The position numbers were made by a program, and so were the translations under genes. A DNA stretch of 64,000 nt from Dokdonella sp. (GTDB lineage Bacteria; Pseudomonadota; Gammaproteobacteria; Xanthomonadales; Rhodanobacteraceae), in the NCBI GenBank assembly GCA_019634795.1, contig JAHCAR010000001.1, forward strand, positions 372,001 through 436,000, written 5' to 3'. A model generated the notes under the pieces. It was not told the DNA's origin. It saw nothing but the letters and a program-made list of their open reading frames with translations, and did no database searches. Of this stretch, positions 5,475 to 43,735 are shown piece after piece. The stretch's first letter is position 1; each line of letters starts with the position of its first letter.

Positions 5475-6770
5475 ATGATCCCCATGCTTTCGGCTGAAAG
5501 GTTCGGCCGGCTGGCCGGAACATTCCTGATTCTCTGCGCTGCCCGGTGCGGAAGCGTCCTTGCCAACGATGTGCCGGTCGCCGATACCGGCGCGCTGATT
5601 GCGGCGATCAACGCCGCCGCACCGGGCGACCGCATCCTGCTCGCCGCCGGCACCTACCAGGTCAACGTCAACCTCAATTGCACGGCGGCCGGCACGGCCG
5701 CCCAGCCGATCGAGGTGCGCGCGCCCACGCCTCGCTCGGTCCTGATCCGGTTCGCCAATGCCAGTGGCGTCACCGAAGGCTTCAAGGTCAGCGCGCCGCA
5801 CTGGCATTTCGAGGGGCTCGATATCGAAGGCGCCTGCGCCAGCGACTCCGACTGCGAACACGCCTTCCATCTCACCGGCAATGCCGACTTCACGATCCTG
5901 CGCGACAACCGGGTGCGCGATTTCAATGCGCAGCTGAAAAGCAACACGGCGTCGCCGGGGAGCGGGCTTTTCCCCGATGACGTGCTGATCGAGCGCAATG
6001 CCTTCTACGACACGCGCGGCCGCAACACCTCCAATCCGGTGACCAAGCTCGACGTGGTCGGAGGCCGCCGCTGGATCGTGCGCGCCAACACGATCCACGA
6101 CTACCAGAAGCTCGGTGGCGACACGGTCAGCTATGCCGCCTTCCTCAAGGGCAACTCGCGCGACGGCCTGTTCGAGCGCAACCTGGTCATCTGCCAGCGC
6201 GACTTCAGCGGCGGCGTGCGTCTCGGGCTGAGCTTCGGCGGTGGCGGCAGTTCGCCGGGAGGCATCTGCGAAGACGGCAGCTGCACGCCCGAACACCAGA
6301 ACGGGGTCATGCGCAACAACCTGATCCTGCACTGCCCCGATGTCGGCATCTACCTCAACAGTGCGGCCGGCTCACGCCTCGAGCACAACACGCTGTACGA
6401 CACCTCGGGGATCGATGTGCGCTTTCCTGCATCGACGGCCGAGGTCCGCAACAATCTGCTCGGTGGCCAGATCCGCAACCGCGATGGCGGCACGAGCACG
6501 CAAACCGGAAACCTGTCGCAGGTCGCGCTGGACAGCTTCGCCAACTGGTTCGTCGATCCCGCGCAGGCCGACTTCCGCCTCGTCGATGGCACGGCCTTCG
6601 TCGACCAGGGCGTCGCCGCGCCGCTGGTGCTGGACGATTTCTGCGGCAACGACCGCAACGACGGCGCACGCGACATCGGCGCGCTCGAATACGACGCGGA
6701 CTTCGCCTGCATCACGACCACCGGCGGCGGCCTCGGGGAATCCATCTTTGTCGACGGCTTCGATCCCTGA
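5475..6770 (+). CDS. Secreted right-handed beta-helix protein with IFVDGFDP C-terminus
   Basis: A 431-residue exported protein. A signal peptide (RFGRLAGTFLILCAARCGSV, then LANDVPVAD) is followed by repeated PbH1-like rungs such as DVLIERNAFYDTRGRNT, RWIVRANTIHDYQKL, GVMRNNLILHCPDVGIYLN and RLEHNTLYDTSGI, the pattern of right-handed parallel beta-helix proteins (chondroitinase B / pectate lyase class). The domain ends with DDFCGNDRNDGARDIGALEY, the usual closing motif of such helices. The last residues, ESIFVDGFDP, carry the C-terminal motif shared by seven other proteins here. GGAGG lies eight bases before the chosen ATG. No catalytic residues of a known lyase are evident, so it may bind or cut polysaccharide, or be structural. 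Confidence 0.82.
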   Translation: MIPMLSAERFGRLAGTFLILCAARCGSVLANDVPVADTGALIAAINAAAPGDRILLAAGTYQVNVNLNCTAAGTAAQPIEVRAPTPRSVLIRFANASGVTEGFKVSAPHWHFEGLDIEGACASDSDCEHAFHLTGNADFTILRDNRVRDFNAQLKSNTASPGSGLFPDDVLIERNAFYDTRGRNTSNPVTKLDVVGGRRWIVRANTIHDYQKLGGDTVSYAAFLKGNSRDGLFERNLVICQRDFSGGVRLGLSFGGGGSSPGGICEDGSCTPEHQNGVMRNNLILHCPDVGIYLNSAAGSRLEHNTLYDTSGIDVRFPASTAEVRNNLLGGQIRNRDGGTSTQTGNLSQVALDSFANWFVDPAQADFRLVDGTAFVDQGVAAPLVLDDFCGNDRNDGARDIGALEYDADFACITTTGGGLGESIFVDGFDP

Positions 6771-6784
6771 TCGTGCGCAAGTTT

Positions 6785-6830
6785 CCGGACCCGTCATGCA
6801 GAGCAATCGACCCGGTCCGGACGGGTCCGG
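6785..6830. terminator. Long hairpin between convergent genes
   Basis: An 11-bp perfect inverted repeat, CCGGACCCGTC / GACGGGTCCGG, with a 24-nt loop lies between the convergent beta-helix gene and katG. There is no clear T-run on either side, so its action as a bidirectional terminator is an inference from position and stem strength. Confidence 0.45.
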
Positions 6831-6882
6831 TACCGGGTCGAATGGACAAGGGACGTGAGCCTGCGGCACCGCCCCAAGGCGA

Positions 6883-9652
<2,770 letters not shown>

Positions 9653-11011
9653 ATGACGCGCGACCAGGTACCCACGTTGCAGGAATTCGTCGAAGGTCTG
9701 GAAAAGCGGAATCCGGGCCAGCCCGAGTTCATCCAGGCGGTCAAGGAAGTCGCCGAAACCGTACTCGAGCATATCCGCGCAAATCCGAAATACCACAAGC
9801 ACCAGATCCTCGAACGCCTGGCCGAACCGGATCGGGTGATCTCCTTCCGGGTCTGCTGGCACGACGACGAAGGCAACGTGCGCGTCAACCGCGGCTACCG
9901 GATCCAGAACAACAATGCGATCGGCCCGTACAAGGGCGGTATCCGCTTCCATCCCACCGTCAACCAGGGCGTGCTGAAGTTCCTCGCCTTCGAGCAGACC
10001 TTCAAGAACGCGCTGACCGGATTGCCGATGGGCGGCGCCAAGGGCGGTGCCAACCTTGATCCGAAAGGCAAGTCCGATGCCGAGATCATGCGTTTCTGCC
10101 AGTCGTTCATGAGCGAGTTGTACCGCCATCTCGGCGAAGACACCGACATACCAGCCGGCGACATCGGCGTCGGCGGGCGCGAAATCGGCTACATGTTCGG
10201 CCAGTACAAGCGCATCACCAACCGCTATGTCGGCGTGCTGACCGGCAAGGGCATGGAGTTCGGCGGCAGCCCGATCCGCATCGAGGCGACCGGCTACGGC
10301 GCGGTCTACTTCATGGAAGACATGCTCAAGCGCATCGGCGAAACCGTGGAAGGTCGGACCTGCCTGGTGTCGGGTTCCGGCAACGTTGCCCAGCACGCAG
10401 TGGAAAAGATTCTCGCCCTCGGCGGCAAACCGGTCACGCTGAGCGACTCCGACGGCTTCATCTACGACAAGTCAGGCATCACCACCGAAAAGCTCGCCTA
10501 CATCAAGGAGCTCAAGAACAAGCGCCGCGGCCGCATCGAGGATTACGCGAAGGAATTCGGTGCCGAATACCATGCCGGCAAGCGCCCGTGGTCGGTGCCC
10601 GGTGAACTCGCCTTTCCCTGCGCGACACAGAACGAGATCACCGGCGAGGATGCCGGCGTGATGCTCAAGAACGGTGTGGTCGCGGTCTCCGAAGGGGCCA
10701 ACATGCCCTCGACGCTCGATGCGGTCAGGCTGTTCCAGGGCGCGCGCATCATGTTCGCGCCGGGCAAGGCGGCAAATGCTGGCGGAGTGGCCGTCTCCGG
10801 CCTCGAAATGAGCCAGAACTCGGCCCGGATCACCTGGAAGGAAGCGGAACTGCAGCGCCTCCTGCGCGACATCATGCAGGAGATCCACGATCGCTGTCAG
10901 CGCTATGGCGGCGTCGCCGGGGACGACAAGTACATCGACTACGTCAAGGGCGCCAACATCGCCGGTTTCGTCAAGGTCGCCGATGCGATGATCGCCCAGG
11001 GCGTGGTCTAG
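9653..11011 (+). CDS. gdhA: NADP-type glutamate dehydrogenase
   Basis: A 452-residue enzyme that reversibly aminates 2-oxoglutarate to glutamate, close in length to E. coli GdhA (447). The glutamate-binding region reads GPYKGGIRFHPTVN and the catalytic lysine lies in LTGLPMGGAKGGANLDP. The coenzyme-binding Rossmann motif is GRTCLVSGSGNVAQHAVEK, and the hexameric-type C-terminus ends VKVADAMIAQGVV. The start is supported by GGGGAGATC before the ATG. It stands alone and is divergent from katG. The gene gives the cell an ammonia-assimilation route besides GS-GOGAT. Confidence 0.97.
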   Translation: MTRDQVPTLQEFVEGLEKRNPGQPEFIQAVKEVAETVLEHIRANPKYHKHQILERLAEPDRVISFRVCWHDDEGNVRVNRGYRIQNNNAIGPYKGGIRFHPTVNQGVLKFLAFEQTFKNALTGLPMGGAKGGANLDPKGKSDAEIMRFCQSFMSELYRHLGEDTDIPAGDIGVGGREIGYMFGQYKRITNRYVGVLTGKGMEFGGSPIRIEATGYGAVYFMEDMLKRIGETVEGRTCLVSGSGNVAQHAVEKILALGGKPVTLSDSDGFIYDKSGITTEKLAYIKELKNKRRGRIEDYAKEFGAEYHAGKRPWSVPGELAFPCATQNEITGEDAGVMLKNGVVAVSEGANMPSTLDAVRLFQGARIMFAPGKAANAGGVAVSGLEMSQNSARITWKEAELQRLLRDIMQEIHDRCQRYGGVAGDDKYIDYVKGANIAGFVKVADAMIAQGVV

Positions 11012-11024
11012 ACTCCTCTCCATA

Positions 11025-11063
11025 GGAAAAAACGTGGACATCGCGATTCGGCGATGCCCACGT
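11025..11063 (-). terminator. Rho-independent terminator of the PA2169-type gene
   Basis: Two 6-bp helices separated by one A-C mismatch (ACGTGG-a-CATCGC pairing with GCGATG-c-CCACGT) close a 6-nt loop. On the minus strand the hairpin is followed at once by six T residues (11032-11027). This is a good intrinsic terminator for the gene ending at 11155; on the plus strand it also lies just after gdhA and could act in both directions. Confidence 0.75.
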
Positions 11064-11154
11064 CTGCTGGTCAGGTTTCACGTTCGGAGCCTTGCGAACG
11101 TAGCGGCTGTCGATATCGGAACCGCGCCTGGCGGCGCCGGAGATCAGCAAGCGA

Positions 11155-11631
11155 TCAGTGCCGGGCCTCCATGGCCCACTTGCGATCGCGCAAGGTATCA
11201 TGGTGCGCCTGCACGGTCGGCAGGTAGCTGCGCAGCGATTCCTTCAGTTCCTTCGGCGCGGATTCGCTCTTGATCACGTCGTGGAAGGCTTCCATGAGCT
11301 GGTCTTCGCCCTTCTCGAGTTCGCTGACATAGCCGTAGTCACTGCGCTCGCGACCCATGCTCTTGCGCACATCGTCATAGATTTCACGGAGTGCGCCGCG
11401 GAAAGTTCCGGCCTCGGCCGGTCGCGCGCCTTCCGCCCGGACCTCCTTCGCCATCGAGCCGACCAGGCCGTTCTTGGAACTTGCCATGTGGTCGAAGAGC
11501 TTGCGCAGATCCGGATTGTCCACCGCCTTGGCAGCATCCGAATAGAAGTTCGCACTGTCGCGCGTCGCTTCGATCAGGTCGTTGAGGGTTCCGATTTTCT
11601 TGATGCGGATTTCGTTCTGGTTGGTCGTCAT
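11155..11631 (-). CDS. PA2169-type four-helix-bundle protein (DUF2383)
   Basis: A 158-residue all-helical protein. The sequence (EIRIKKIGTLNDLIEATRDS then DSANFYSDAAKAVDNPDLRK) and the regular spacing of acidic and histidine residues (LFDHMASSKN, LMEAFHDVIKSE, TVQAHHDTLRDR) match the ferritin-like PA2169 family, DUF2383. Members are often found beside stress genes, but no enzymatic role is established. The start MTTNQNE is set by GAGGAG seven bases upstream; the ATG eight codons earlier (MANQRSN) is rejected because the Shine-Dalgarno sequence lies inside it. An intrinsic terminator follows at 11025-11063. Confidence 0.85.
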   Translation of the reverse strand: MTTNQNEIRIKKIGTLNDLIEATRDSANFYSDAAKAVDNPDLRKLFDHMASSKNGLVGSMAKEVRAEGARPAEAGTFRGALREIYDDVRKSMGRERSDYGYVSELEKGEDQLMEAFHDVIKSESAPKELKESLRSYLPTVQAHHDTLRDRKWAMEARH

Positions 11632-11838
11632 TGGATTGCTCCTCTGATTGGCCACGGATTCACACTGCGAGATGATCGTTTTCGTGGAAGGTGGACGCTG
11701 GATTGCACTGGCAGCGTCCCAAGGCTACAGGAGCGGCAGTGAATGCGGCGTGACCCGGATCCGCAAGTTTCACCACTTGTATCTTTTGTCTCGAGTCTGC
11801 GACGAACTCACCAATGGATCGAGCGGTGTCGCCGGGGC

Positions 11839-13149
11839 TCAATCGAAGCCGCTCGCGAATATCAGGTCAGGCGAAATCTGGTCCGCGCCGATGTCCGAGC
11901 CATTGACTCCGGCCGTGCGCGACTGGCCGTCGAAGTCGTCCGCGGCATCGGCAAGCGCGGTGGCATGAGCGATCGCAGGCGATGCCATGGGCGTGAGATG
12001 CAGATCGCCACTGGCGGGATCGACGAACCAGTCCGGCTGCGCGCTGCCGAGATTGTTGTCGAGCACCGGCATCGCGCCGTTTCTCGGCAGGATCGCCGCG
12101 TCGAGCAGGTTGCCGGTCACCTGGACGCCGGTCGCGCCGGCGTAGCGCACCTCGATCGCGTTCGGATAGCGCCCTGAGGTCAGCGCCGTGTTGTTGAGGA
12201 GCCTGGCGTTCGGTGAGGTTACGTAGATCGGCACGTCGACGGCATAGCTTGCGGCCGGGTTCATGCGGATGAAGTTGTTGCGGACGATGCCGTTGAAATG
12301 ATCCGTGGCGCTGACCAGCCCCAGCGCGATTCCGCGCGACGAATCGATGATCGTGTTGCGTTCGACCAGGGTATCCGCCGAGCCCTGCCAGAGCAGGATC
12401 GAAGGTCCGGCCAGGCTGAGGTCCTGGCAGCGGATGTCGTGGATGAGGTTGTCGCGCACGATCCAGCGATCGGCGCCGACACCATCGATGGCATTCGTGT
12501 AGCAGCTGCCGGGTGGCGAACCTTCGGGATGATTGACCGCCCCGTTGGCCAGGAACAGCTCGGAGTATTCGATACGCACGTCGTCAGCGCCGGGCACGCC
12601 CTTGACGATCTGCTGGCCGGCATCGGAAAGACGCAAGTGGTAAAGGCGTATGTCGTGCGCACCCTGGTCGCCCTGCACGGCGACCGCATGGTAGTAGACG
12701 TTTCGCACGCTGAGATCCGCGATCACGACATCGCTGGCGGTGAATATCTGGATACCGAAAGGAACGACTGGATCGAGCATTCCGGCACCTTGTATGACCA
12801 CATCGGCCGGATTGCCGGTCGCGCCGCGGATCTGGATGTGCGAGATCGACGCCGCGCCAAAGCGACCGACCGTCAGGCGGCCGTCGACTCCGTTCGGAAA
12901 TGCGACGCTGGCGAGATCATAGGTGCCCGGCGCAATCACGATCGCCCGGTTGCTGGCGAGATTCCAGCACGCGTCGGCCAGGGCTTGCGCGGTGGATACG
13001 CCAACGACGGAAAACTCCGGCCCCGGAGGCGCCAGGCTCGGCGCCTCATCGGGCGTCCTGGCAAAGGCCGCAGCTCCGAACAAGAGCACTGCTGCGAGCG
13101 TCAGGCCAGCAACGATTGGCAGGGGTGCCTGGCGAGGGAAGTCTGCCAT
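11839..13149 (-). CDS. Secreted right-handed beta-helix protein with DLIFASGFD C-terminus
   Basis: A 436-residue exported protein. The signal peptide is PLPIVAGLTLAAVLLFGAAA followed by FARTPDEAP. The body has a leading 'ALADACWNLASNRAIVIAPG' strand and many PbH1-like rungs (DRWIVRDNLIHDIRCQD, DTLVERNTIIDSSRGIALG, NGIVRNNFIRMNP, ARLLNNTALTSG), the arrangement of a right-handed parallel beta-helix. Near the end DDFDGQSRTAGVNGSDIGAD is the same capping motif as in the protein at 5475, and the last residues are DLIFASGFD, the shared C-terminal motif. Start: AAGGGA eight bases before the ATG of MADFPRQ. Role unknown; cell-surface or secreted polysaccharide-binding is plausible. Confidence 0.8.
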   Translation of the reverse strand: MADFPRQAPLPIVAGLTLAAVLLFGAAAFARTPDEAPSLAPPGPEFSVVGVSTAQALADACWNLASNRAIVIAPGTYDLASVAFPNGVDGRLTVGRFGAASISHIQIRGATGNPADVVIQGAGMLDPVVPFGIQIFTASDVVIADLSVRNVYYHAVAVQGDQGAHDIRLYHLRLSDAGQQIVKGVPGADDVRIEYSELFLANGAVNHPEGSPPGSCYTNAIDGVGADRWIVRDNLIHDIRCQDLSLAGPSILLWQGSADTLVERNTIIDSSRGIALGLVSATDHFNGIVRNNFIRMNPAASYAVDVPIYVTSPNARLLNNTALTSGRYPNAIEVRYAGATGVQVTGNLLDAAILPRNGAMPVLDNNLGSAQPDWFVDPASGDLHLTPMASPAIAHATALADAADDFDGQSRTAGVNGSDIGADQISPDLIFASGFD

Positions 13150-14461: not shown

Positions 14462-14495
14462 GCATTTCCGCATGACATCCTGAAGGCTTCCCCCG

Positions 14496-20800: not shown

Positions 20801-21753
20801 ATCTCGCCCCGCTGACCGGTCGCGGCTACATCCGACGGTTCCGCAACGACGGCAACGGCGTGTTCGTCGGCGAGGACATCCTCGGCTCGCTCAGCATCGA
20901 GCACGGCGAGGCGCAATGGGGCGACTACGACGACGACGGCGATCTCGACATCCTCGTCGCCGGCAACATCCGCGAGACCGATGGCAGTTTTGACACGGTG
21001 CTGCGCATCTATCGCAACGATGCCGAGACCTTCGTTCCGGTCGAGATCATTTCCTGCGTCTTCTGCGAAGGCTGGTTCGACCTGAGCGCCGCGACCTGGG
21101 CCGATTACGATTCGGACGGCGACATCGACATCCTGCTCGCCGGCACCTACAACTCCGGTACGCAGATCGAAGGCCGCGCCAAGGTCTACGACAATGTCGA
21201 CGGCAACTTCATCGATTCAGGCAACCAGTTGCCGGCGCCGCGCTCTTCCGGATTCAGCGGCGGCTCGTTCAGCTGGCTCGATATCGACGGCGAAGGCGAT
21301 CTCGACTATTTCATTGCCGGCTCGTATTTCGTGCCCGGCGGCAACGGCCTCATCGAGACCCAGATGCATCTGTACCTGAACAGCGCTTCGGGACAGAATC
21401 AGGCCCCGTCGGCTCCGACATCGCCCGGCGCGCAAGTGAACGGTGATGGCTCGGTCTCACTTTCGTGGAACCCGGCCACCGACGATCTCACTCCGGCCAC
21501 GGCGCTCACCTATGAGGTGCACCTCTACCGCGAAGGCGTTCCACTTTCGTCGGCGCGGAGGATTCCCGAGCCCGGCAGCCTGCGCGGCGCCGATGGCTGG
21601 ACACTGGCAGGCCTGCCCGATGGCTCCTATATGTGGACCGTGGAGGCGATCGACAGCGCATTCAACGGGGGGCCAGCCGCACCAGCAGCTTTCCGCATCG
21701 GCCCACCCTTGCCCGACCGGATCTTCAGCGGAAATTTCGAAGCGCCTGAATGA
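17854..21753 (+). CDS. Large secreted BNR / PKD / VCBS / Fn3 protein with RIFSGNFEAPE C-terminus
   Basis: A 1299-residue exported protein. Signal peptide: LAFAALLATLAAMPAAA, then QWTTESPLP. Residues about 45-670 are YCF48/BNR beta-propeller-type repeats with the Asp-box form S/T-x-D-x-G-x-x-W (TTDAGASWQQ, TSDGGASWSE, STDGGLTWQM, SLDAGASW-like). About 676-757 is a PKD domain (WDFGDGTGSTERNPVHAF). About 790-1145 has seven FG-GAP/VCBS repeats with the calcium-binding D-x-D-x-D-G-D form (DYDGDGDLDIV, DVDGDGDPDLV, DYDNDGDLDLL, DYDSDGDIDIL). About 1181-1285 is a fibronectin-III-like domain. The last residues, DRIFSGNFEAPE, carry the shared C-terminal motif. AAGGAG precedes the ATG. Likely a surface or secreted adhesin-like protein; partner unknown. 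Confidence 0.87.
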   Translation: MPIAPHISSIAAARCARAQPSRRPLAFAALLATLAAMPAAAQWTTESPLPTHLQIHGVAAPAPGRILIATEDDSFDDGGALFESGDGGGTWTQRAIPANLSDGLNGIVFLDAQRGWAWGNVNYRTVDGGASWHELPVLGSTYAMAFETPDFGIASGNFGRLISRDGGLSWQASPADISEYSFADAQTALGASATGLYRSTNAGASFAAVLAGDADDVEFLSPTVAVAIVDGAFRRSNDAGLTWSAGSSAQGRNRLFVVSEDIVLAWGRSGTFPDYDDRLFRSADGGQSWSDLGEVIPSDAFANGLAFTIVDASILVASNGAGDLSRSVDAGLSWAQVYAAPGPRPGFLDSGKPVFADAQTGYYGFADGLLVRTTDAGASWQQISSGSGQAVLALDRFSNGDLIGVGEGGRVLTRAASASTWLIRATLGNTDLVAVQVLGAQTVVAVNHDGQLYRSSDAGASWVAATTVPPGLSAAADLHFETAIEGWVIGQGFAGAALFHTLDGGATWTPVTDFQGSYAAIDFAGANGWAVAEFGILYRTSDGGASWSEVQLPGSGFSIQDVDFWDAGTGYVVGGSGYAARSTDGGLTWQMLPVPDSSANITDIALISANELWVSTSDGKLMYSATGGQNWALIDSGYAGLGSLGSLAVSAEGDAWIGGWRGLIMHFAGPPGPPLNQPPVASFDFVTTGLSVALNDSSSDADGTIASWSWDFGDGTGSTERNPVHAFATAGTWHVTLTVTDDDGDTDSTLRFIVVQQGPGGTFGEFTEVTPLDALFVTPQDEDFWVTSAAPADYDGDGDLDIVVLGYYVVYNVSAVDQMILLRNDGPLSPTQWHFTYIEVPLGSLSAGASDLAWGDVDGDGDPDLVAGSNGQTVLYRNDAGTLVPTDTVLPGYWEDNDQADFDLNSISWADYDNDGDLDLLLPSIWDDTTFTSHTALMRNDGAHGSGGWIFTEVDAGFGESDHAQSSWADFDGDQDLDLLVVHLAPLTGRGYIRRFRNDGNGVFVGEDILGSLSIEHGEAQWGDYDDDGDLDILVAGNIRETDGSFDTVLRIYRNDAETFVPVEIISCVFCEGWFDLSAATWADYDSDGDIDILLAGTYNSGTQIEGRAKVYDNVDGNFIDSGNQLPAPRSSGFSGGSFSWLDIDGEGDLDYFIAGSYFVPGGNGLIETQMHLYLNSASGQNQAPSAPTSPGAQVNGDGSVSLSWNPATDDLTPATALTYEVHLYREGVPLSSARRIPEPGSLRGADGWTLAGLPDGSYMWTVEAIDSAFNGGPAAPAAFRIGPPLPDRIFSGNFEAPE

Positions 21754-29203: not shown

Positions 29204-32200
29204 CTACCAGCGCAGAATCACATCACCGGAACCGGCCACCTTCCAGGCACCCTTCAACCACTCACCGTCGAGGTAGCGGTTGAGCTGCAGTTCGATCGTG
29301 GCGCCATGCTGGCGTGCGTTGACCACGAACAACGCGTCGCTGCCGGGTGCCGGGGTCGTCTTGAGAATCTGCACGGGGTTGTTCTGACCGGCGCCCCTGA
29401 GACGCGACTCGATCTGCGCACGGCCCAGATGCGCGGCATGCTTCTCGAAAGCCACGATCATCACCGCCGATTCGAAGCCGTCCGCGAAAATCAGGTCGCC
29501 AGAAGACTCGACGGCGCCGACATCGCAGGCTTGAGCGGGATTGCCGTTGACCACGACACCGCGCGGGTTGCCGGTTTGGTCGATTCCGCTGCAACCATTG
29601 AATCGATCGATCAGCGGCGAATCGGCGAATGGCAGGTGGGTCAGGGTCAGACCACCGTTGTCCGCAAGCGAACCAAGGCGCGGATCGATCACACCGGCGC
29701 CGAGCGGATCACCGATCAGGTTGTTGTTGGCGTCCGGGGTACCGATCGGCGCGCCGGTCAGACCCGATCCTGTGTTGTCTCCAACGAGGCTGTTGACCAG
29801 GGTGACTGCGGGATTCTCGCTGTGGATATCAGGCGCAGGGCTGGCCGAGGAATCCGAATTGCGGGCAAGAACAGTCGCGGAGACATTCAGGCTACCGCTT
29901 CCGCTGGAGAACAATCCACCAGCGGCCGGCGCGGGGCTGAACGTGCCGGTGCCTGCCGCGTTATCGATGATGCTGCTGCCCTCGATGCTGACCGCCGATG
30001 TCGAATCGACAGAGACATTGACACCGCCGCCGGCACGCAAGCTGCTGTTCCCCGAAACAGTCGAATCGAGCAATAAGAGATCGGCATTGTTCGAACCCGC
30101 GAGATAAACTCCACCGCTGTTCTGCCTCGACGAGTTGCCCGAAACCGTCGTGCGCGAGAGCGTGACGGTAGCCTGATCGGCGCTGATGAAGGCACCGCCA
30201 CCGCGAGTGTTGGCAGTCAGACCGAGAGGGTCGCCGGCGGCCTGATTGCCCGAGAGGGTCAGTTCCGAGATTGAAGATGAACCCGAGGCCTGTGACAGGT
30301 ACAAGCCGCCGCCGCGAGCCGTGGAATTCGGCCCAGAAGTCACGTCTGCGCCAATGTTGTCGAGGATACGCAGCCTGGAAAGCTCGGTGACACCGCCGCT
30401 GGCTTCGACGTAGAGACCCGCACCGCGACAATCGAGACAGCGCAGGCTGTTCCCGGAAAATTCCGAATCATGGGCGTCCAGCGTGGTGCCCTGGAGCAGC
30501 AGCGACAAGCCGCCACCTCTCGAATCCAAGTTGCTTCCGGTATTGCCCTGAAATTGCGTATCGGCAATCTCGACGATGCTTCCGCTTCCGGCCTGGATCT
30601 CCGCGCCAGCAGAGACATGCGCCTGATTCGAATTGAATGAGGCATCGCTCAGGGAAAAAGTAGAACTTCCCGGAGCTGAAGAGAAAAGTGCACCGCCGGT
30701 ATTGTTGGCCGAATTCGAACTGAATGACATCGAATCGATCACCAGGTTTTCCCGATTCCTGAGGGCTCCTCCCGATTCCGATCCACTGACCGATCCGCCG
30801 ATCAAGGTCATGCCCGACAACGCAACATCGAGGTTGCTCGCGTCAATGCCGTCGTCGATCAGAAAATGCCGCGATGCCGAGTGGGCATCGAGGACAAGCA
30901 ACGACTGCCCGGGACCGATGATCGATACCGGCGAGGCGACAAGCATCTGGCCCATCGTCAATGCATTGGTTTGCGTGCTGGCAAAGACACCCGCATCGAA
31001 CGTGATCACCGATGCATCCGGATCACCGTTGGCGGCCATCACGGCGTCGCGCAGGGTGCACTCGCCGATCGCCGTTCCGCAGAAGCCATCGCCCAGGTCA
31101 TCGCTGGCATTGACGACGAAATCGGCGCCAGCCTGGCCCGCTTCCTGTACCTCGACAGCGCCGATATCGCAGGCCGCCCCGAAGGGCCTGGATTCACCGC
31201 GCTGGTCCTGCCCGCTGCAGCCGGAAAAATGATCGATCGCAGGAGACCCGGGCAAGGGCAGCTGCGTGGGCGTCGAACCGCCATTGTCGCCAAGCGCGCC
31301 CAGCTTCGGCGCGACCGCGAGCAAGGTATTCGTCTGCGTGTTGAAGGTAGCCGTGCCGGGATCTTCAATCAGCGAATCCTGGACGTTGAAGGTCCCTCTC
31401 AGGTCCGCAGCGCGGCTGTTGGCCACGATGGTGCCGATCAATGTGGCCGAATTCGCGTCCACCGCGGAAAGCAGGCTGTTATTGCCCGAGACGGTGCTGG
31501 TGGTCAGGGTAAGTGAACTCCCGGTCGAATAGACAGCACCACCGCCGCCGCTGGAGTTCACGCCATTTCCGCTGATCGTGCTGTTGCTGATGCTCGTCGA
31601 ATTCTGACGCGCATAGACGCCGCCACCCTTGAAGGCCGCCGTGTTTCCGGACAGCGTACTGTCGATGAGGGTCAAATCGCGATAGCGCGACCACACCGCG
31701 CCGCCATCGGCAGCCGTCGAATTGCCGACCAGATGAACCCGATCCAGCTCCAGATTGGCAACGCTGCGAATCGCGCCGCCGCGACCACCCGGATCAGGCG
31801 CACTGCCATCGCCGTTGCCTCCGGTCAGGGTCAGGCCACTGATCATGTTGAGGGTATCGAGTGCGGTGTTGGGCGACGCCACGTTGGCGAAGTGAAATAT
31901 CCGCGACTGTCCACCGGCATCGATGGTCAGCCGGTCGGCGCCCGGCCCGCTGATCGTCGTGGACGATTGCATGGCCAGCTCACCGTTGCTCAGAGTGATC
32001 GTACCTGGCGATGCGAACACGGTCGGATCGAAGGTGATGATTGAAGCATCAACATTGCCTTCGGCGGCGAGAACCGCATCGCGCAAGGTGCACTCGCCGA
32101 CGGCGACTCCGCAGGAGCCATTGCCGGCGTCGTCCGTGGCGTTCACCACGAAATCCGGACCGCCTTGCAGCATCCCCGAACTGGTCGACTGACTGGTTTG

Positions 32201-32646: not shown

Positions 32647-33669
32647 ATGTACCGCTCGGTGGTGTCCAAAGGCTTCGGTCTGGTTGTGATCGTGGTAGCA
32701 GGCCCGGCGATCGCCAGCACTTCGTGCGTCTCGACGGCCGGTGGAATCCAGTCCGCATTGGACATTGCCCAGACCAATGGACAGGACGACACGATCAACA
32801 TCGTCGGTGGCAGCTATTCGCTGTCGGCAGAACTCGACTTCAGTTCGTCCGAGGCGCACAACCTGGTTGTCGAAGGTGGCTGGAACGCGGGTTGCACGTC
32901 GAGGAGCGGTGTGGAAACGCAGCTGAATGGGCAAAACCTCGTGACCGTGCTGGACGTGTTCAACGCCAATGGAAGCATCGATCTCGAACACCTGACATTC
33001 GCAGCGGGTCGTTCAACCGCTCCGCTGGCCGCCCCGATTTCGGTGTCCAGCAATACCGGCGATGTTGCCGTCCGCCTGTGCCAGTTTCTCGGCAATCGTT
33101 CGACCGAAGGATCCGGCGCATTGACGGCGTACACGGGCAGTGGCCACCTCTACCTGGCAAACAATCTGGTGGTCGCCAATCACGGCGCACTTCTCGGCGC
33201 CGTATTTCTCTCACAGGATGCAGGCGAGGGCTACGTGACCGGCAACACCATAGTCGCCAACGCTACCGACACCGCCGATATGCCTGGCGGCCTTGGCATA
33301 GGCGGCAACGGCCACTTCACGCTGACCAACAATATTCTCTGGAACAACGCGGGAACGAATGCCTACGACTTCCAGGCCAACGCCGCGCACAGTCGCTTCA
33401 ACAACGATATCGGCGTACTCGGCAATGGCGTGGCCGCGGACCAGGTCGTGGCTGAACAGTATGTCGATCCGCAGTTCGTCGCCTGTCCCGGCATTCTTTG
33501 CCTGAGCTTCGAACTTGGCGGCCAGTCCCCCCTGATCGACGCTGGCTTCGATACGCCCTTGGGTGGCCAGCCGGCATTGGATCTCAACGGCAAGCCCCGC
33601 CAGCTCGGGCTTCATGTCGACATCGGCGCCTACGAAAGCGAAGAGATCTTCGCCGACGACTTTGACTGA
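32647..33669 (+). CDS. Secreted beta-helix protein with EEIFADDFD C-terminus
   Basis: A 340-residue exported protein with signal peptide VSKGFGLVVIVVAGPAIAST. The body begins CVSTAGGIQSALDIAQTNGQ, the usual first strand of a beta-helix, and has rungs HNLVVEGGWNAGC, SIDLEHLTFAAG, HLYLANNLVVANHGAL, YVTGNTIVANATD and HFTLTNNILWNNAGTN. It closes with LDLNGKPRQLGLHVDIGAYE, the capping motif of the family, and ends at once with EEIFADDFD, a variant of the shared motif with D in place of G. GGGAG lies eight bases before the ATG. It faces the CSLREA-type gene divergently, and the two may be paralogues. Confidence 0.82.
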   Translation: MYRSVVSKGFGLVVIVVAGPAIASTSCVSTAGGIQSALDIAQTNGQDDTINIVGGSYSLSAELDFSSSEAHNLVVEGGWNAGCTSRSGVETQLNGQNLVTVLDVFNANGSIDLEHLTFAAGRSTAPLAAPISVSSNTGDVAVRLCQFLGNRSTEGSGALTAYTGSGHLYLANNLVVANHGALLGAVFLSQDAGEGYVTGNTIVANATDTADMPGGLGIGGNGHFTLTNNILWNNAGTNAYDFQANAAHSRFNNDIGVLGNGVAADQVVAEQYVDPQFVACPGILCLSFELGGQSPLIDAGFDTPLGGQPALDLNGKPRQLGLHVDIGAYESEEIFADDFD

Positions 33670-33888: not shown

Positions 33889-34878
33889 TCATGTTTCGAA
33901 GCCATCCGTGAAGATCTGATCGAATCGCTGTCCTTCCTCGAATCTCAGATTCAGGAAATTGCTCGACGTCGTACGCGGATCCACCGTTCCGGTACCCGGA
34001 TTCCACAGGACAAAGCCATCCACCTTTACATTCGGCGGCAGCGAAATCTCAGCACGAAGAACGAAGTCGGTGAAATTGACAATAACCACGTTGGCCCAGC
34101 TTGGCGGAGGATCTGCCACCACGGAATCCGAACATGCACGCACCAGGGCTCCCGCAGCAACATTCAGATTGAGGAGGTAACTCAGCCCTGAATCATCGAA
34201 ACCACGAATCTGCACGGTCGCTGCAGTACTCGATGTGTTGTATAGGTCAAGGCAGGTCGCGTTGCCGTCGCTGTCCTGGGGCGCGAAGTGCAGGACCGAG
34301 CCACGGGGAAGATTTGGGCTGAATCTGAGCTTGATCGTGTTGACCGATGTACGTGGATCGTAAGTTGAGGTTCCAGTATTGGCGATGAATCCATCGATCT
34401 GCACGCCTGCGGGAAGCGACGCACGGACATACGCCGTGAAGTCAGTGAAATTGACGATGACCGTGGCCGCCCAACTCGGTGGCGGCGTTGCGACCAGCGC
34501 ATCCGAGCAGGCGCGCACCGCCGATTCAGCCGGAATCGGGACGTTCCAGATGCTGGCCAGAGCTCCCGCTGAATCGAATCCGTCAAGAACTACAGTCTGT
34601 GGCGTGTTCGAGGAATTCATCAAGAACAGGCACGTCGTCGACTGGTCGTGATCCGATGGCACGAAGTAGAGCACTTGCGCATCCACAGCCGCCGGCGCCG
34701 TCGCGCTCGATGGCATCGGCGGCGGGACAGTTTCGTCCGAGTCGAACGCCTCACCAGCAGGGGACGGAATCTGAGGCACAGGCCCGACACCTTCATCTGT
34801 TGCCGAGGCATATCCGGGTGATAGTGAACACGCGAAAATAAGGCAGGCACACGCGATTCTGGAAATGAGCACAACCAC
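33889..34878 (-). CDS. Secreted protein with tandem duplicated domain and QIFTDGFET C-terminus
   Basis: A 329-residue exported protein, signal peptide ISRIACACLIFACSLSPGYA. Two copies of one ~120-residue domain follow: VLYFVPSDHDQSTTCLFLMN ... FTDFTAYVRASLPAGVQIDG ... TSTYDPRTSVNTIKLRF, and VLHFAPQDSDGNATCLDLYN ... FTDFVLRAEISLPPNVKVDG ... TGTVDPRTTSSNFLNLRF. Shared points are V-R-A-C-S-D, PPPSWA and VIVNFTDF. The last residues are FDQIFTDGFET, the shared C-terminal motif. The start is uncertain: the listed codon is GTG, and a GTG two codons later has better spacing from GGGGG. Lower apparent G+C than the nearby metabolic genes. Confidence 0.78.
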   Translation of the reverse strand: MVVLISRIACACLIFACSLSPGYASATDEGVGPVPQIPSPAGEAFDSDETVPPPMPSSATAPAAVDAQVLYFVPSDHDQSTTCLFLMNSSNTPQTVVLDGFDSAGALASIWNVPIPAESAVRACSDALVATPPPSWAATVIVNFTDFTAYVRASLPAGVQIDGFIANTGTSTYDPRTSVNTIKLRFSPNLPRGSVLHFAPQDSDGNATCLDLYNTSSTAATVQIRGFDDSGLSYLLNLNVAAGALVRACSDSVVADPPPSWANVVIVNFTDFVLRAEISLPPNVKVDGFVLWNPGTGTVDPRTTSSNFLNLRFEEGQRFDQIFTDGFET

Positions 34879-34991
34879 CCCCGTCAGTTATCGTTCGAAT
34901 TCCAACAAATGCAAAGTCGCCAGTGCAGCAACAGCAGCCAGGAACCCTGCGATCACACGCCTCTCCGACGAGGTGTGCCCAATCTTTGCAG

Positions 34992-37472: not shown

Positions 37473-37499
37473 GGCGGCAGACTTCACGTGCATGTGGTG

Positions 37500-39005
37500 T
37501 CAGTCGAAGCCACTCGCGAAGATGACGGTCGGATCGAGGTCGAGCAACAGATCGAGATTGGTCACCGCGTTCGGATAACCCGAGGAAATATGCAGCGTGC
37601 CGAAGCGCACCGTGTTGTCGCCGTTCACGAGCTCGGACAGCGGCACCTCGATGGCATGATTGTAGCCACCGGTTTGTCCGGGCTCATCGAGCATGGCGAC
37701 TTCGCCAGGCGTGAACCCGCGTTCGTGGGCCGGGTAGCCGTTGAGCTGGTAGCGCAGGCGCCCCGTGCCGAGGCGGATACCATCGATGTCGTAGCCCTGG
37801 TAGTAGCCATTGAAGACCAAGCGCGCGCGAATCGCGTTCGCCAGCGACACATCACGGAACACAAGTGGCGCACCGAGGGCCCCGACGCCGTCGGGGATGA
37901 CATAGCCGAGGCTGAGCCCGGGGTGCTCGATCGTATTGATCGTACCCGGCGGAAATTCGTCAATGGTCGTGAAGGTCGCCGGTACGCCTGCCACCGGAAC
38001 CTCGTACTCGCGAGTATTCGCGAGCACCGGGCCGTCGAAGCCGATGTTGTCCCAGTAGGTGTTCCACGAGCGCAACGGACGAGGCAGGCCGCCGAAGGTG
38101 ATGCCGTACTTCCAGGTCGCATGGTTGTGCGCGAGCAGCGAGACGTAGCCCCGCGAGAATGGCAGCGGCGTATCGAAAACGACGACCCGGCGGCTCACGA
38201 GCGGACCGAACGTCACGCCGTCGGTCGACGGATCGGAGGTCAGCACCTCGATCTGCTGCTGCGACAGCCTCAGTTCGACCCGACACAGGTGTCCGCGCTG
38301 ACGCGGAACCTCGCTGGACGAACCAGCCGGTGTCGTCATGGCGTAGTCGTGCACCTCGTGCACTTCAACCGGACTGCCGATGAAAACCACGATGACGCCA
38401 TTGCGCGGATTCGGCCCGCGGCCGTTGATGTCCCAACTCGGCGTGGGTGCCGGGTCGTCGCTGACGACGATGCTGGTGTAGCCGAGAAGGAAATTCGAAG
38501 CGAGATCGGTTTCGAATGCGATCACTCCGGTTCGGCCTTCAAAATCGAAAGGCTGCCGGATGCGATAGGCATTGCTGCCATAGTTCTGCGAACCGACCGC
38601 CGTCATCAAGTAGTGGCTCTGGATCGGCGGCGACGGATCGCACACCAGCGTATCGCGCGTCGGCATCAGCAAACCCGTCACATCCGCGCGGCACGGTGGC
38701 GGCTCTTCAGGGATGAGCCCGAACTCGGCTTCCCAAACCCAGAACGTGACCCCGTCACCGGTCGACAGCGAGGGCGCATAGCGCGTCGAACTGAAGCGCG
38801 AGCGACTCAACTCATTGCCGCGGCCCCGGTCCGACAAAGGGGCCGGACCGCTTTCGAACGTCTCGCAGAACGCGGGGTCGGGCAAATTGCAACCTGCCGT
38901 TGCCATCGCCGTTTGCGCCGATGGCGCGGCGAACAGGCCCAGCCACAGGAATGCGCCGACAAAGCGCCCCGAGGACCGCGCGGCCAATAGCTCCGGGCTC
39001 AGCAT
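37500..39005 (-). CDS. Secreted protein of unknown fold with VIFASGFD C-terminus
   Basis: A 501-residue protein. The N-terminus MLSPELLAARSSGRFVGAFL runs into a hydrophobic stretch WLGLFAAPSAQTAMA, a signal peptide with a long n-region. A motif PAFCETFESG follows near residue 50. The body is beta-rich, with segments such as TGVIAFETDLASNFLLGYTS and VVFIGSPVEVHEVHDYAM and a later WKYGITFGGLPRPLRSWNTY, consistent with a jelly-roll or concanavalin-like fold, but I recognise no named domain. It ends LDLLLDLDPTVIFASGFD, the shared C-terminal motif. The start is uncertain; an ATG 33 nt upstream (39038) is possible. It lies just after the MITE. Confidence 0.72.
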   Translation of the reverse strand: MLSPELLAARSSGRFVGAFLWLGLFAAPSAQTAMATAGCNLPDPAFCETFESGPAPLSDRGRGNELSRSRFSSTRYAPSLSTGDGVTFWVWEAEFGLIPEEPPPCRADVTGLLMPTRDTLVCDPSPPIQSHYLMTAVGSQNYGSNAYRIRQPFDFEGRTGVIAFETDLASNFLLGYTSIVVSDDPAPTPSWDINGRGPNPRNGVIVVFIGSPVEVHEVHDYAMTTPAGSSSEVPRQRGHLCRVELRLSQQQIEVLTSDPSTDGVTFGPLVSRRVVVFDTPLPFSRGYVSLLAHNHATWKYGITFGGLPRPLRSWNTYWDNIGFDGPVLANTREYEVPVAGVPATFTTIDEFPPGTINTIEHPGLSLGYVIPDGVGALGAPLVFRDVSLANAIRARLVFNGYYQGYDIDGIRLGTGRLRYQLNGYPAHERGFTPGEVAMLDEPGQTGGYNHAIEVPLSELVNGDNTVRFGTLHISSGYPNAVTNLDLLLDLDPTVIFASGFD

Positions 39006-39187
39006 CCATCGACAAACATCCCGTTCGAGTCGGCGCATGGGCGATACCGATTCAACCCGTCCGCAGCGATCATAGATGGACGCGCCTCCGGGTTTGCTCG
39101 CCCCCCTCTCAGTTCACTGATTTCGGACTTTGGCGTCCGCAATTTCAGCGGCTGTAAGAGTTCAGCAGCGGTGCGATGCATGCGGTG

Positions 39188-39649: not shown

Positions 39650-39784
39650 GGGACTCCCCAGGTAGTGGGCCCGAGCCTGATTGGCCCGGATATCGCTTGC
39701 TGCACAGGCAGCCGATTCGCTGCCTGTTTCCAACCATCCCTGTGCCAGCGCCCTGCCCTGCCGCCGGGAAGGTACGCGCCCCGC

Positions 39785-40892: not shown

Positions 40893-41549
40893 TCAGTGGT
40901 CGGAGCTGCCCCAGATCTGTTCGAGTCGCGCGTCGCGGCCGCAGTTGTAGCGGTAGAACTTGTAGCGCAGCGGATTCTTCTTGTAGTAGTCCTGATGGTA
41001 GCCCTCGGCCGGATAGAAGGTCGCGGCGGGCACGATCTGGGTGGCGATCGGCTGGCTGAACTTGCCGGAGGCCTCGAGTTCGCGCTTGCTCTCTTCAGCC
41101 AGGCGCTGCTGTTCGGGCGTGGTCGTGAAGATCGCGGTGCGGTACTGGTCGCCGTGATCGCAGAACTGCTGGTCGATCGCAAACGGATCGATGTTGTGCC
41201 AGTACACATCGAGCAGCTTCCTGTAGTCGACACGGGTCGGATCGAAAACCACCTTGACCGATTCGGCATGGCCGGTGCCGCCGGCGGACACCTGCTCATA
41301 GGTCGGATCGGGGGCCAGGCCGCCGGTGTAACCCGAAGTGGTCGAGATGACGCCGGGCACCTTGTCGAACGGTGGCTCCATGCACCAGAAGCAGCCGCCG
41401 GCGAAGATGGCCACTTCGGTCGGGCCGCTCGCAGGCGCGGCCGCGGACGGCTCGTCGGCCGGGCCGGCACAGGCGCCCATCGCCGTCATCAACAAAACGA
41501 GGCCAAGCGCGGTAAAGCGTGAAACCAGTCGATTCTTCAGAGTGTTCAT
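40893..41549 (-). CDS. msrA: Exported peptide-methionine (S)-S-oxide reductase MsrA
   Basis: A 218-residue enzyme that reduces the S-epimer of methionine sulfoxide. The active-site motif is G52-C53-F54-W55 (AGGCFWCMEPPFD). The other family blocks are TSGYTGGLAPDPTYEQVSAG, HAESVKVVFDP and NIDPFAIDQQFCDHGDQYRT, and the C-terminus has FYPAEGYHQDYYKKNPLRY. The N-terminus is a signal sequence (LVSRFTALGLVLLMTAMGAC) whose lipobox (MGAC) is weak, so secreted or lipidated forms are both possible. GAGGAG precedes the ATG. It starts 2 nt after msrB; the two form an operon for repair of oxidised envelope proteins. Confidence 0.96.
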   Translation of the reverse strand: MNTLKNRLVSRFTALGLVLLMTAMGACAGPADEPSAAAPASGPTEVAIFAGGCFWCMEPPFDKVPGVISTTSGYTGGLAPDPTYEQVSAGGTGHAESVKVVFDPTRVDYRKLLDVYWHNIDPFAIDQQFCDHGDQYRTAIFTTTPEQQRLAEESKRELEASGKFSQPIATQIVPAATFYPAEGYHQDYYKKNPLRYKFYRYNCGRDARLEQIWGSSDH

Positions 41550-41551
41550 TA

Positions 41552-42076
41552 TCAGCTCCTCAAGGCCGGCAGGGCCTGGCCCTTCGGCACGAATTCCAGG
41601 GCCAGCCCGTTGTTGCACCAGCGCTCGCCGCGCGGTCGCGGGCCGTCGTTGAACACATGACCCTGATGGCCGCCGCAGCGCGCGCAGTGATATTCGGTGC
41701 GTGGCCAGACCAGCTTGAAATCGCGCTTGGTCTCGACATGGCCGGCAATCGGCTGGGTGAAGCTCGGCCAGCCGGTACCGCTGTCGAACTTGTTGGCGCT
41801 GTCGAACAACGGCAAGCGGCAGGCTGCGCAGATGAAGGTGCCGTCGCGCTTCTCATCGTTGAGCGGGCTGCTGAATGCGCGTTCGGTATCTTCCTCGAAC
41901 AGCACGTCGTAGGCGGCATCGCTGACCACGCCCTTCCATTCCTCGTGCGGCTTGTTCAACGGCACGACCTTGCCGGACGCCGGCGCGGCACCGGTGTCGG
42001 CGGCCTTCGAACAGGATGGCAGCAGCGGAATGACCATCAGCGCACCGAGATTGCGCAACAGGGAACGGCGATTCAT
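41552..42076 (-). CDS. msrB: Lipoprotein peptide-methionine (R)-S-oxide reductase MsrB
   Basis: A 174-residue enzyme that reduces the R-epimer of methionine sulfoxide. Zinc ligands are C83/C86 (ICAACRLPL) and C131/C134 (YHCARCGGHQGH). The catalytic cysteine is C154, in ERWCNNGLAL; the usual form is RYC-x-NS, so the residues after the cysteine differ. KFDSGTGWPSFTQP is the family's substrate loop. The N-terminus NRRSLLRNLGALMVIPLLPS ends at a lipobox LPSC (C22) and has a twin-arginine-like start. GGAGG lies upstream of the ATG. Its stop is 2 nt from the start of msrA. Confidence 0.95.
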   Translation of the reverse strand: MNRRSLLRNLGALMVIPLLPSCSKAADTGAAPASGKVVPLNKPHEEWKGVVSDAAYDVLFEEDTERAFSSPLNDEKRDGTFICAACRLPLFDSANKFDSGTGWPSFTQPIAGHVETKRDFKLVWPRTEYHCARCGGHQGHVFNDGPRPRGERWCNNGLALEFVPKGQALPALRS

Positions 42077-42391
42077 GCAGGGACCTCCGAAAACGGGATG
42101 GGTTGCTGGCGACACATCGGCGCGAAGCGCGCTGGCACGAGGCATGCGCCCGCAATGAAGGAAAAAGCGCCGGAAGCGGTGCGGTTTTGGGCGGGAGGGA
42201 GCCGCACCGTTCCGGCAACAGACGCAGCCATTCGGCCACGTGGTCATGGTCCTAGACCGGGTCACGAGGACTTTCATTGCATCGATGCATGTCCGGACTT
42301 GCGCATACAATGGACGGACCCGGCGCCGCACCATGGTTTACTGCTGCGAATGCCATTGTTTATTCGACCCCCCCCGGCCACAGGAGTTCAC
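42077..42391. other. Divergent intergenic region msrB / M28 peptidase
   Basis: 315 nt. A TACAAT box at 42306-42311 could be the -10 of the peptidase gene, but no good -35 stands 16-18 nt before it. A run of eight C residues lies at 42368-42375, a few bases upstream of the peptidase ribosome-binding site. No gene is recognised. Confidence 0.45.
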
Positions 42392-43735
42392 GTGCCCCTG
42401 ATCGATGCACCCGTGCCACCTATGCAAACGCCCACGCCGAGCGCACTGGTCGTCGATATAGAATCGGCCGACAGTGCTGCACTCGCAGCCTGGAAACAAG
42501 CCCGCGGCGTTCGCTGGTGGATCGAAATGGGCGATCAGCTCGTCTTGGTGGGAGATACAGGAGAGTTGGGCGCATTCGATGCGAATGACGCGGTGCGTGG
42601 CCGCGTCGAGGGCTTCGACATCGAGCGCGTGCGCCTGCATGCGCGCGGCTGCCAGCGCGACGCAAATACGCCCGGGCGAATGATCGCGCAGGGCGGCCGC
42701 TGGGAGCTGCGCGAGTTCGACAGCGCCGAGCTCGCCCGCGCTGCAGCGGCAGGTGGTGACCACGACGGCGAATGGCAAAGCGCGCAGCCGAACAGCGTGA
42801 TCGCGCATCGGGTACGGCGGCAACCCGGTGGCGCTGCGGCCGATCCCCTGATCGTGCCGCTGGTTGACGCGATCAATCCGGCCCGCTGGTTCGCCGATCT
42901 CGATAGCCTGACCCAATGGGACCGCTCGAGCTACGGGCCCGAACTGCCGCTTTCACGGGCCTGGATCGAAGGGCGCTTCAGTGCCATCGGGCTCGAGGTC
43001 AGCGCGCCGGCCTTCAGCATGCCGGGCAGCGGTGGTGGGCAGATCAGTGTCAACAACGTGATCGGTCGCTGGAACGGAACGCTATTGCCGGACGAATGGA
43101 TCATCGTCGGCGCCCATTACGATTCGCGCAACTCGAGCCTGTCCTCGACCACCAACACGCCGGGCGCGGAAGACAATGCCTCGGGCTGCGCGGGCGTGAT
43201 CGAGCTGGCCCGGGTGCTCGTTGCGAACCGGCCGCAACGCAGCATTCTCTTCATGTGCTACGCCGGCGAGGAACAGGGCCTGTATGGAAGCAAGGCGCAT
43301 GTGCAGGCACTGCAGGCCACGGGCGACCTGGCCAAGGTGCAGGCCGTGGTCACCATGGACATGATCGGCTACAGCGCCGACACCACGCTCGACGTGCTGT
43401 TCGAAAGCAGCGCGACCTGGAGCGCCTATCTGAACCAGTTTGCGGACGCGGCCTCGGCCTATGTGCCCGCGCTACGGGTCACGCTGAGCACGAATCCGTT
43501 CGGCTCGGACCACGTGCCGTATCTGAATGCCGGCAAGAAGACCCTGCTCGCGATCGAGAACGACTGGGACATTTATCCGTACTACCACCGAAGCACCGAC
43601 ACGAGCGATCACGTCGGCGTCAATGCCCAGGCCATGGGCGGGGCCATCCTGAAGACCAGTGTCGCCGTCCTGGCCGAGTTGACCGGTGCGTCGGACCGGA
43701 TTTTCAGCGACGGAGTTGATCCGCTTGCGCCGTGA
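42392..43735 (+). CDS. M28-family zinc aminopeptidase/carboxypeptidase with RIFSDGVDPLAP C-terminus
   Basis: A 447-residue metallopeptidase. M28 zinc ligands are visible: VGAHYDSRN (His, Asp), TPGAEDNASGCAG (bridging Asp), CYAGEEQGLYGSK (catalytic and ligand Glu), MDMIGY (Asp) and GSDHVPYLNAG (His). The N-terminal 120 residues are a prodomain-like region (ALVVDIESADSAALAAWKQA). AGGAG five bases upstream fixes the start at GTG 42392. With that start no signal peptide is seen, which is odd since the C-terminus, ASDRIFSDGVDPLAP, carries the motif of the exported proteins here. A C8 run just upstream could mark a lost or phase-variable signal sequence. Convergent with the WS/DGAT gene. Confidence 0.87.
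   Translation: MPLIDAPVPPMQTPTPSALVVDIESADSAALAAWKQARGVRWWIEMGDQLVLVGDTGELGAFDANDAVRGRVEGFDIERVRLHARGCQRDANTPGRMIAQGGRWELREFDSAELARAAAAGGDHDGEWQSAQPNSVIAHRVRRQPGGAAADPLIVPLVDAINPARWFADLDSLTQWDRSSYGPELPLSRAWIEGRFSAIGLEVSAPAFSMPGSGGGQISVNNVIGRWNGTLLPDEWIIVGAHYDSRNSSLSSTTNTPGAEDNASGCAGVIELARVLVANRPQRSILFMCYAGEEQGLYGSKAHVQALQATGDLAKVQAVVTMDMIGYSADTTLDVLFESSATWSAYLNQFADAASAYVPALRVTLSTNPFGSDHVPYLNAGKKTLLAIENDWDIYPYYHRSTDTSDHVGVNAQAMGGAILKTSVAVLAELTGASDRIFSDGVDPLAP

Follow-up and report, generated by a model that had tools for sequence, protein, structure and literature searches.

A short linear motif, D-x-I-F-x-[D/N/S]-G-F-[D/E], as a candidate sorting tag on unrelated, apparently exported proteins of Lysobacterales

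Introduction

Why should proteins of different folds end in nearly the same short sequence? The question is raised by a 64-kb stretch of DNA from Dokdonella sp. (contig JAHCAR010000001.1, positions 372,001 to 436,000), hereafter the window, by which we mean the whole stretch analysed. An earlier reading of its letters, the original prediction, had noticed eight proteins with a shared I-F-x-D-G-F-[D/E] ending and had proposed a signal for secretion or surface anchoring. All eight tails are real, being in frame and confirmed base by base, and the proposed function appears supported, in that the motif lies at the C-terminus in relatives and belongs to no larger domain. The best explanation overall is a short linear sorting tag, D-x-I-F-x-[D/N/S]-G-F-[D/E], carried by exported proteins, a reading to which sequence comparison leads us to assign a probability of about 0.65.

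Enrichment, position and consensus

The genome from which the window is taken (G000; 3.87 Mb, 85% complete) was scanned for the DNA pattern of the tag, with the same pattern read backwards as a control. The strict pattern, IFxxGF[D/E], was found at 40 sites and its reversed control at none, and a looser pattern gave 64 sites, again against no controls. All 40 strict sites were read: in 36, an in-frame stop follows within 25 codons, and the other four comprise a window protein with an extension, an N-terminal site (L022), a site inside a subtilase-like protein (L025), and a site in a doubtful frame (L021; another such frame was met at L127). Among 40 C-terminal tags picked by peptide pattern, a slightly different set from the 40 strict sites, the consensus is D-[L/R]-I-F-A-[D/N/S/H]-G-F-[D/E], with D two residues ahead of I in 36. 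Only 0-15 residues remain between motif and stop, and neither a membrane helix nor a basic tail follows, as had been claimed.

At the invariant residues of the 40 sites, isoleucine is encoded by ATC (33) or ATT (7), the first phenylalanine by TTC (32) or TTT (8), and glycine by GGC (32) or GGT (8), the two glycine codons that the pattern allowed. The second phenylalanine is TTC at 40 of 40 sites in G000 and TTT at 12 of 13 sites in Marinicella loci. Because synonymous positions vary while the residues stay, selection would seem to act on the protein, which points to a tag maintained at that level. Apparent signal peptides were noted by eye in most tagged open reading frames (ORFs), whose starts were chosen by hydrophobicity. 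For L078, a tagged M28 relative, a modest AlphaFold model (7 sequences; mean predicted local distance difference test score, pLDDT, 61) has its last helix at residues 421-441, no secondary structure beyond it, and pLDDT below 50 at residues 453-457, weakly suggesting an exposed tail.

The predicted C-terminal position stood for nearly all tags, not for every one. In five proteins (L022, L116, L138, L211, and L307), the tag lies directly behind an apparent signal peptide, and internal copies occur in L025, L028 (GYE form), L122, L130, and the extended window protein. L122 is a 439-residue ORF in which an IFxxGFE tag is followed, some 60 residues on, by an IPTL-like helix and basic tail. Tandem tags 33-39 nt apart were also seen, for instance at G036:C1:871659-871720, and in G071, G098, and G010.

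Unrelated bodies and modularity

An alignment of 90 tagged proteins, from G000 and named relatives, has I, F, G, and F as its only invariant columns and a mean column identity of 7%. The view that the folds differ and that shared ancestry is no explanation was thus upheld, the bodies being unrelated and the tag their sole common part. Family searches with these proteins gave matches to 45 families in NCBIfam and 48 in Pfam, of which 25 each are listed. Three kinds of body are familiar from other sorting systems: choice-of-anchor Q, in 19 of the 90, CSLREA, in 2, and rhombotarget A, in one. The families listed further include reprolysin-type peptidases (7), beta-helices (7), delta-60 repeats (6), GSDH (4), GH44 (2), M28 (2), MauG-like proteins, and a beta-lactamase fold. 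The choice-of-anchor Q domain takes its name from sitting before different anchors in different organisms; the same type of body would therefore be fitted here with another tail.

The motif is also not a piece of a larger conserved domain, given the unrelated bodies and the fact that alignments of tagged with untagged proteins end just before the tag. In Tahibacter soli (L059), two M28 paralogues are 67% identical and one of them is tagged; a second tagged and untagged pair, at L010, is 39% identical. The alignment of the window M28 protein with its untagged L059 relative stops 8 residues ahead of the tag. Many nominally untagged partners in the list of such pairs carry near-tags (FANGFN, FYDGFN, ADDFE). 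Because tagged and untagged paralogues can adjoin, the tag, as judged from these alignments, is a modular add-on.

The eight tagged proteins of the window

Two of the eight proteins are of beta-helix or beta-helix-like type. ESIFVDGFDP (6738..6767, + strand) ends ORF 5340-6770, a Beta_helix protein by Pfam with a choice_anch_Q match below cut-off (E=0.0017), and DLIFASGFD (11842..11868, - strand) ends ORF 11839-13488, in which the Beta_helix and choice_anch_Q matches are both below cut-off. A BNR/PKD/FG-GAP protein (ORF 17581-21753) ends in DRIFSGNFEAPE (21715..21750, +), with N for G. On the opposite strand, the choice-of-anchor Q/CSLREA protein of ORF 29204-32464 (choice_anch_Q 108 bits, CSLREA 42 bits) carries an otherwise normal tag, DLIFADGFE (29471..29497, -), followed by an 88-residue extension (29207..29470, -) for which no homologue was seen among the tag loci compared. 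In ORF 32266-33669, EEIFADDFD (33640..33666, +), with D for G, directly follows a choice-of-anchor Q domain that scores over cut-off at 33 bits.

The C-terminal DQIFTDGFET (33892..33921, -) belongs to a DUF5719-like protein (ORF 33889-34878; 25.0 bits, slightly under cut-off), and TVIFASGFD (37503..37529, -) to ORF 37500-39038, which has no family match in NCBIfam or Pfam. The M28 peptidase of ORF 41519-43735, whose start is uncertain, ends in DRIFSDGVDPLAP (43694..43732, +), with V for F. Overall, three of the eight tags bear core substitutions (N or D for G, V for F), and a fourth runs on into an extension; choice_anch_Q matches four of the proteins, two over and two below cut-off; and in none of the eight is the tag covered by an NCBIfam or Pfam model.

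Distribution across genomes

In the order Lysobacterales, 89 of 398 genomes have at least 10 GF-type hits and are here called tag-rich, a definition under which genomes with the R-for-G variant described below count as tag-poor; the maximum is 145 hits, in G279. Controls in the 398 genomes were mostly 0-2, reaching 11 in family f9 (G028, 37 hits and 11 controls). Outside the order, a stricter pattern gave 0-2 hits per genome in 271 other genomes of the class, versus 54 in G000. Order-wide scans and the sites read place the motif at the C-terminus in relatives too, as anticipated. A scan of named species found at least 116 stretches with the tag, and the titles listed, from which the name of the order is taken, include Dokdonella, Tahibacter, Marinicella, Pseudofulvimonas, Rudaea, and Pseudolysobacter, along with Rhodanobacteraceae, Lysobacteraceae, Lysobacterales, Xanthomonadales, and unplaced Proteobacteria or Gammaproteobacteria. 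One Xanthomonas-titled metagenome-assembled genome (MAG) and two stretches of one Alcanivoracaceae-titled MAG are also among the matches listed. The tag is almost confined to one order, inside which it is patchy.

Genes whose presence tracks the tag

The original prediction had looked to a gene whose presence tracks the motif. Two candidates do so: the exosortase gene XrtH, in 88 of the 89 tag-rich genomes, and T2SS-A, a second type II secretion system (T2SS), in 80. These counts over the 398 genomes are taken without regard to relatedness, and Fisher values computed from them, which share that limit, are given no weight. Rhombosortase does not track the tag. Neither XrtH nor core T2SS-A was found in 230 of the 309 genomes that are not tag-rich.

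XrtH is present in 163 of the 398 genomes. The tag-rich exception, G173, is a MAG 85% complete, and G138 was counted on a weak match (E=9e-7); TIGR04177 matches all 10 XrtH members tested. In f2, XrtH is restricted to the three tag-rich genera; it went unmatched in the remaining genera of f1 and f2 and in the nearly tagless G019. Fewer than 10 GF hits occur in 75 XrtH genomes, some being of the R-variant and some, as in g5, f7, and much of f8, having almost no tags. IPTL-CTERM matches were obtained in 21 of 27 XrtH genomes tested and in none of 5 without XrtH, at 0-8 per genome. In seven XrtH loci, no dedicated partner was seen, and aroB-like neighbours were recognized by eye in four. XrtH may serve surface attachment in these lineages, or may have no more than a history in common with them. 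Pfam PF09721 was set aside as a presence test for XrtH, having missed 8 of 24 tag-rich genomes found by a dedicated profile (A2).

The presence of a T2SS in general was likewise discarded as a tracker, being near-universal: GspD scores over cut-off in 47 of 48 genomes, including all 24 chosen as tag-rich. Two T2SS secretins were found by score in 22 of these 24; G113 has only the type A secretin, and G123 one secretin and a fragment at a contig end. Of the 60 secretins in a tree, the 25 of type A (from 23 tag-rich genomes, the R-variant G009, and the tagless G230) form one clade (support 83/89), well apart from the Xps-like type B, and 14 of the second, B-like secretins were placed in the tree. 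The best matches of the type A secretin are structures of T2SS secretins, and T2SS-A forms a gspC-gspD-gspE cluster, with a trx and an rhlB motif in 9 of 20 type A loci. By the type A profile, core T2SS-A is present in 126 of 398 genomes; this count leaves out 34 divergent relatives (~440-620 bits) and takes in G153 and G177. Tag-rich genomes without it are G048, G063, G097, G118, G123 (contig-end fragment only), G167, G178, G182, and G212, several being incomplete MAGs. It is also missing from G053 and G007, which bear XrtH and are tagless, and G230 and G368 have a divergent form of T2SS-A and no tags. T2SSC domains score over cut-off in each of the two GspC proteins examined. Among 18 ORFs taken from upstream of gspD, a PDZ-like end was recognized by eye in 15, and three proved to be the wrong ORF. 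Near the T2SS-A cluster of G000, a protein ending in the near-tag DQIFASGFQ (L216:15571-16911) stands beside another long ORF.

Rhombosortase was rejected as a partner: it scores over cut-off in none of the 24 tag-rich genomes and in three of 48 overall, all tagless, and lies just under cut-off in the tag-rich G113 and G150. In the tagless G230 (L327, G230:C47:11000-30000, at ~9051-12332), ~1 kb separates a rhombosortase over cut-off from a divergent T2SS-A gspD, an arrangement suggestive of a GlyGly-CTERM/T2SS locus in this genus.

A lineage with R for G

Genus g33 has XrtH and few GF tags. With the pattern IFxxRF[DE], its genomes give the following hits and controls: G037, 49 and 1; G009, 20 and 0; G058, 14 and 1; G029, 11 and 1; G104, 7 and 0. 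Twelve R-type sites were read: the stop is no more than six residues away in 11, and the twelfth is N-terminal, behind an apparent signal peptide. In G139, from another genus of the same family, 29 hits with G or R (no controls) were obtained versus three with G, and G036 has 7 R-type hits with 3 controls. Because the same R substitution recurs across tens of unrelated proteins, the switch would be best explained by one shared reader that co-evolved with its tags. A pattern open at the G position, with D or N before it, gave no hits in 13 of 13 XrtH-less genomes and no controls in 40 genomes; it also gave no hits in the XrtH-bearing genera g5, g31, g43, g49, and g55.

Proposed mechanism and alternatives

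We consider the following course, taken as a whole, very probable. A tagged protein would cross the inner membrane by means of its signal peptide (the peptides having been judged by eye), fold in the periplasm, and offer its exposed tag, at either end, to one shared envelope factor, which would direct it to the outer membrane or across it. A tight turn formed by the x-[D/N/S]-G core might bring the two phenylalanines next to each other.

As the reader of the tag, T2SS-A is tentatively favoured, perhaps acting through the PDZ-like end of GspC, because T2SSs export folded proteins of many kinds, because this system seems to be the one most often lost with the tags, and because its GspC ends are PDZ-like. 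The PDZ domain of EpsC is reported to select one T2SS substrate and to be needed for VesB in Vibrio (PMC12369372), and the recruitment of T2SS substrates is called elusive in another study (PMC7949064). The remaining weight falls on an XrtH-linked surface system or on some other receptor. The fullest form of the T2SS-A proposal, in which a portable tag of about nine residues, at either terminus, is read directly by one of two T2SSs, picks out dozens of unrelated folded proteins, and changed from G to R together with its reader in one lineage, seems rather improbable; T2SS signals are otherwise regarded as structural and composite.

Several observations weigh against T2SS-A as the reader. XrtH is the tighter correlate, and shared ancestry inflates all such counts: by taxonomy, about three independent co-losses with the tag can be counted for XrtH (f1 crown, f2 crown, and G019), to which T2SS-A adds g5 and part of f8, making about five. 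Three f8 genomes without T2SS-A have genuine terminal tags, the sites read being three C-terminal and one N-terminal in G063, six C-terminal in G097, and three C-terminal in G171. Conversely, G257 and G335 have T2SS-A, lack XrtH, and show 1 and 0 hits, and the f7 genomes G006 and G017 have both T2SS-A and XrtH, yet 1 and 2 hits; at the threshold used, T2SS-A is neither necessary nor sufficient. The PDZ matches of both GspC proteins tested are under the Pfam cut-off, and PDZ-like GspC ends occur in G257 and G335 as well. PDZ domains bind a free C-terminus, to which N-terminal tags, or tags up to 15 residues from the stop, are ill-suited, and T2SSs of other bacteria work, to our knowledge, without such a tag. 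With regard to the switch of reader and tags, R, suggested by Wenzhouxiangella-like tails, was the sole alternative given a test by itself, and G150 shows 13 R-type hits too, against 0 controls, by pattern count. In a study of Pel3 (PMC7949064), moreover, the signal was a composite of several loops.

A docking motif for some receptor of the outer membrane or matrix, unconnected with T2SS-A or XrtH, is possible, if somewhat unlikely. Neither of those systems fits all genomes, and N- or C-terminal placement and tandem copies suit a short binding peptide; against this, a clustering of 148 sequences yielded no candidate receptor, the largest untagged clusters being taken without a family search. 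We regard as unlikely a role in the exosortase H surface system, in which XrtH, or an IPTL-CTERM protein that it anchors, would retain the tagged proteins. In favour of such retention, XrtH is found in nearly all tag-rich genomes and also in tag-poor f8, and gave no match in G019 or the remaining genera of f1 and f2; IPTL-CTERM matches are distributed with it, and L122 combines the tag with an IPTL-like tail. On the other side, the helix and basic tail of an exosortase signal contrast with the few residues after the tag, tagless XrtH genera exist (g5, with G053 and G269, and g31), and the seven XrtH loci gave no dedicated partner.

PDZ proteases such as DegS read short terminal peptides, so the tag could be imagined as a quality-control or degradation signal for a periplasmic protease; with up to 145 sites per genome, secreted-type bodies, and N-terminal copies too, this is very improbable. 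Chance, a repeat at the DNA level, and the remains of a shared domain, to which the shortness of the motif and the bodies that some tagged proteins have in common might point, are rejected in view of the zero reversed controls, the synonymous variation at I, F, and G, the unrelated bodies, and the tagged and untagged paralogues.

If the sorting-tag reading is correct, part of the exported and surface proteome, with tens to more than 100 tagged proteins per genome, becomes predictable from sequence across the order. Should a T2SS read the tag, how T2SSs pick folded substrates would become testable with one short peptide, and the R-variant lineage would offer a natural specificity swap for finding the reader.

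Neighbouring genes

Clustering of the neighbourhoods of tagged genes (148 sequences) revealed no clear dedicated partner, and many of the clusters are shadow ORFs or reflect same-genus synteny. The largest untagged clusters (14, 9, 8, and 8 loci) consist of an apparent sigma factor and long ORFs that are possibly shadow frames. The apparent sigma factor was recognized by eye at L032:2758-3474, with relatives in L047, L049, L056, L070, L071, L079, and L127 (eight tag loci), and the conserved ORFs near it may be a kinase or shadow frames. An apparent resistance-nodulation-division (RND)-type transporter was likewise seen in four tag loci (L058, L069, L072, and L082). In the window itself, at 48149-56089, a bacterial alpha-2-macroglobulin gene adjoins that of a transglycosylase/transpeptidase with a BiPBP_C domain.

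Comparison with known sorting systems

In the literature found by full-text search, a scope that mostly leaves subscription papers outside, the motif is unnamed, and a sorting signal with no membrane helix, no folded domain, and placement at either end would be of a new kind there. In exosortase signals, the motif precedes a membrane helix and a basic tail. The original prediction had held the tag apart from IPTL-, PEP-, and GlyGly-CTERM and from LPXTG, and by sequence this is correct, the required helix and basic tail being absent after the tag. IPTL-CTERM with exosortase H (TIGR04174/TIGR04177) resembles the tag in its C-terminal position on varied exported proteins and in the presence of XrtH in almost every tag-rich genome. 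It differs in its motif and in the helix and basic tail that follow; here neither follows and N-terminal placement is possible, and tens of tags per genome compare with 0-8 IPTL-CTERM matches. No IPTL- or PEP-CTERM match was found in the eight window proteins, nor among the families listed (25 of 45) for the 90 proteins, and an LPXTG motif with helix and basic tail is absent from the tails read.

The C-terminal domain of the type IX secretion system is a folded domain of ~70-80 residues known from Bacteroidota. It is likewise a soluble C-terminal signal for secretion and attachment on varied bodies, whereas the present tag is of about nine residues, with invariant columns limited to the tag; no such domain is among the 25 NCBIfam and 25 Pfam families listed for the 90 proteins. 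The outer-membrane beta-signal read by the beta-barrel assembly machinery is also a short C-terminal motif with aromatic residues, found on beta-barrel proteins, whereas the tagged bodies here are beta-helices, propellers, and enzymes.

GlyGly-CTERM ends in a helix and a basic tail at the C-terminus, and a point of likeness is the rhombotarget A body on one tagged protein. GlyGly-CTERM with rhombosortase (Vibrio VesB; PMC13393428) is, like the tag, a short terminal motif, there on secreted enzymes that use T2SS, and proteins are reported to reach the surface through GlyGly-CTERM combined with a second signal. T2SS exoproteins in general are, similarly, folded and exported from the periplasm, and the PDZ domain of GspC can select a substrate; in PMC7949064 and PMC12369372, their signals are several loops acting jointly or an Ig fold, unlike a linear tag. 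The tag is filed in no C-terminal sorting family because a defining feature of each one tested is lacking; all the same, it may work like the known ones.

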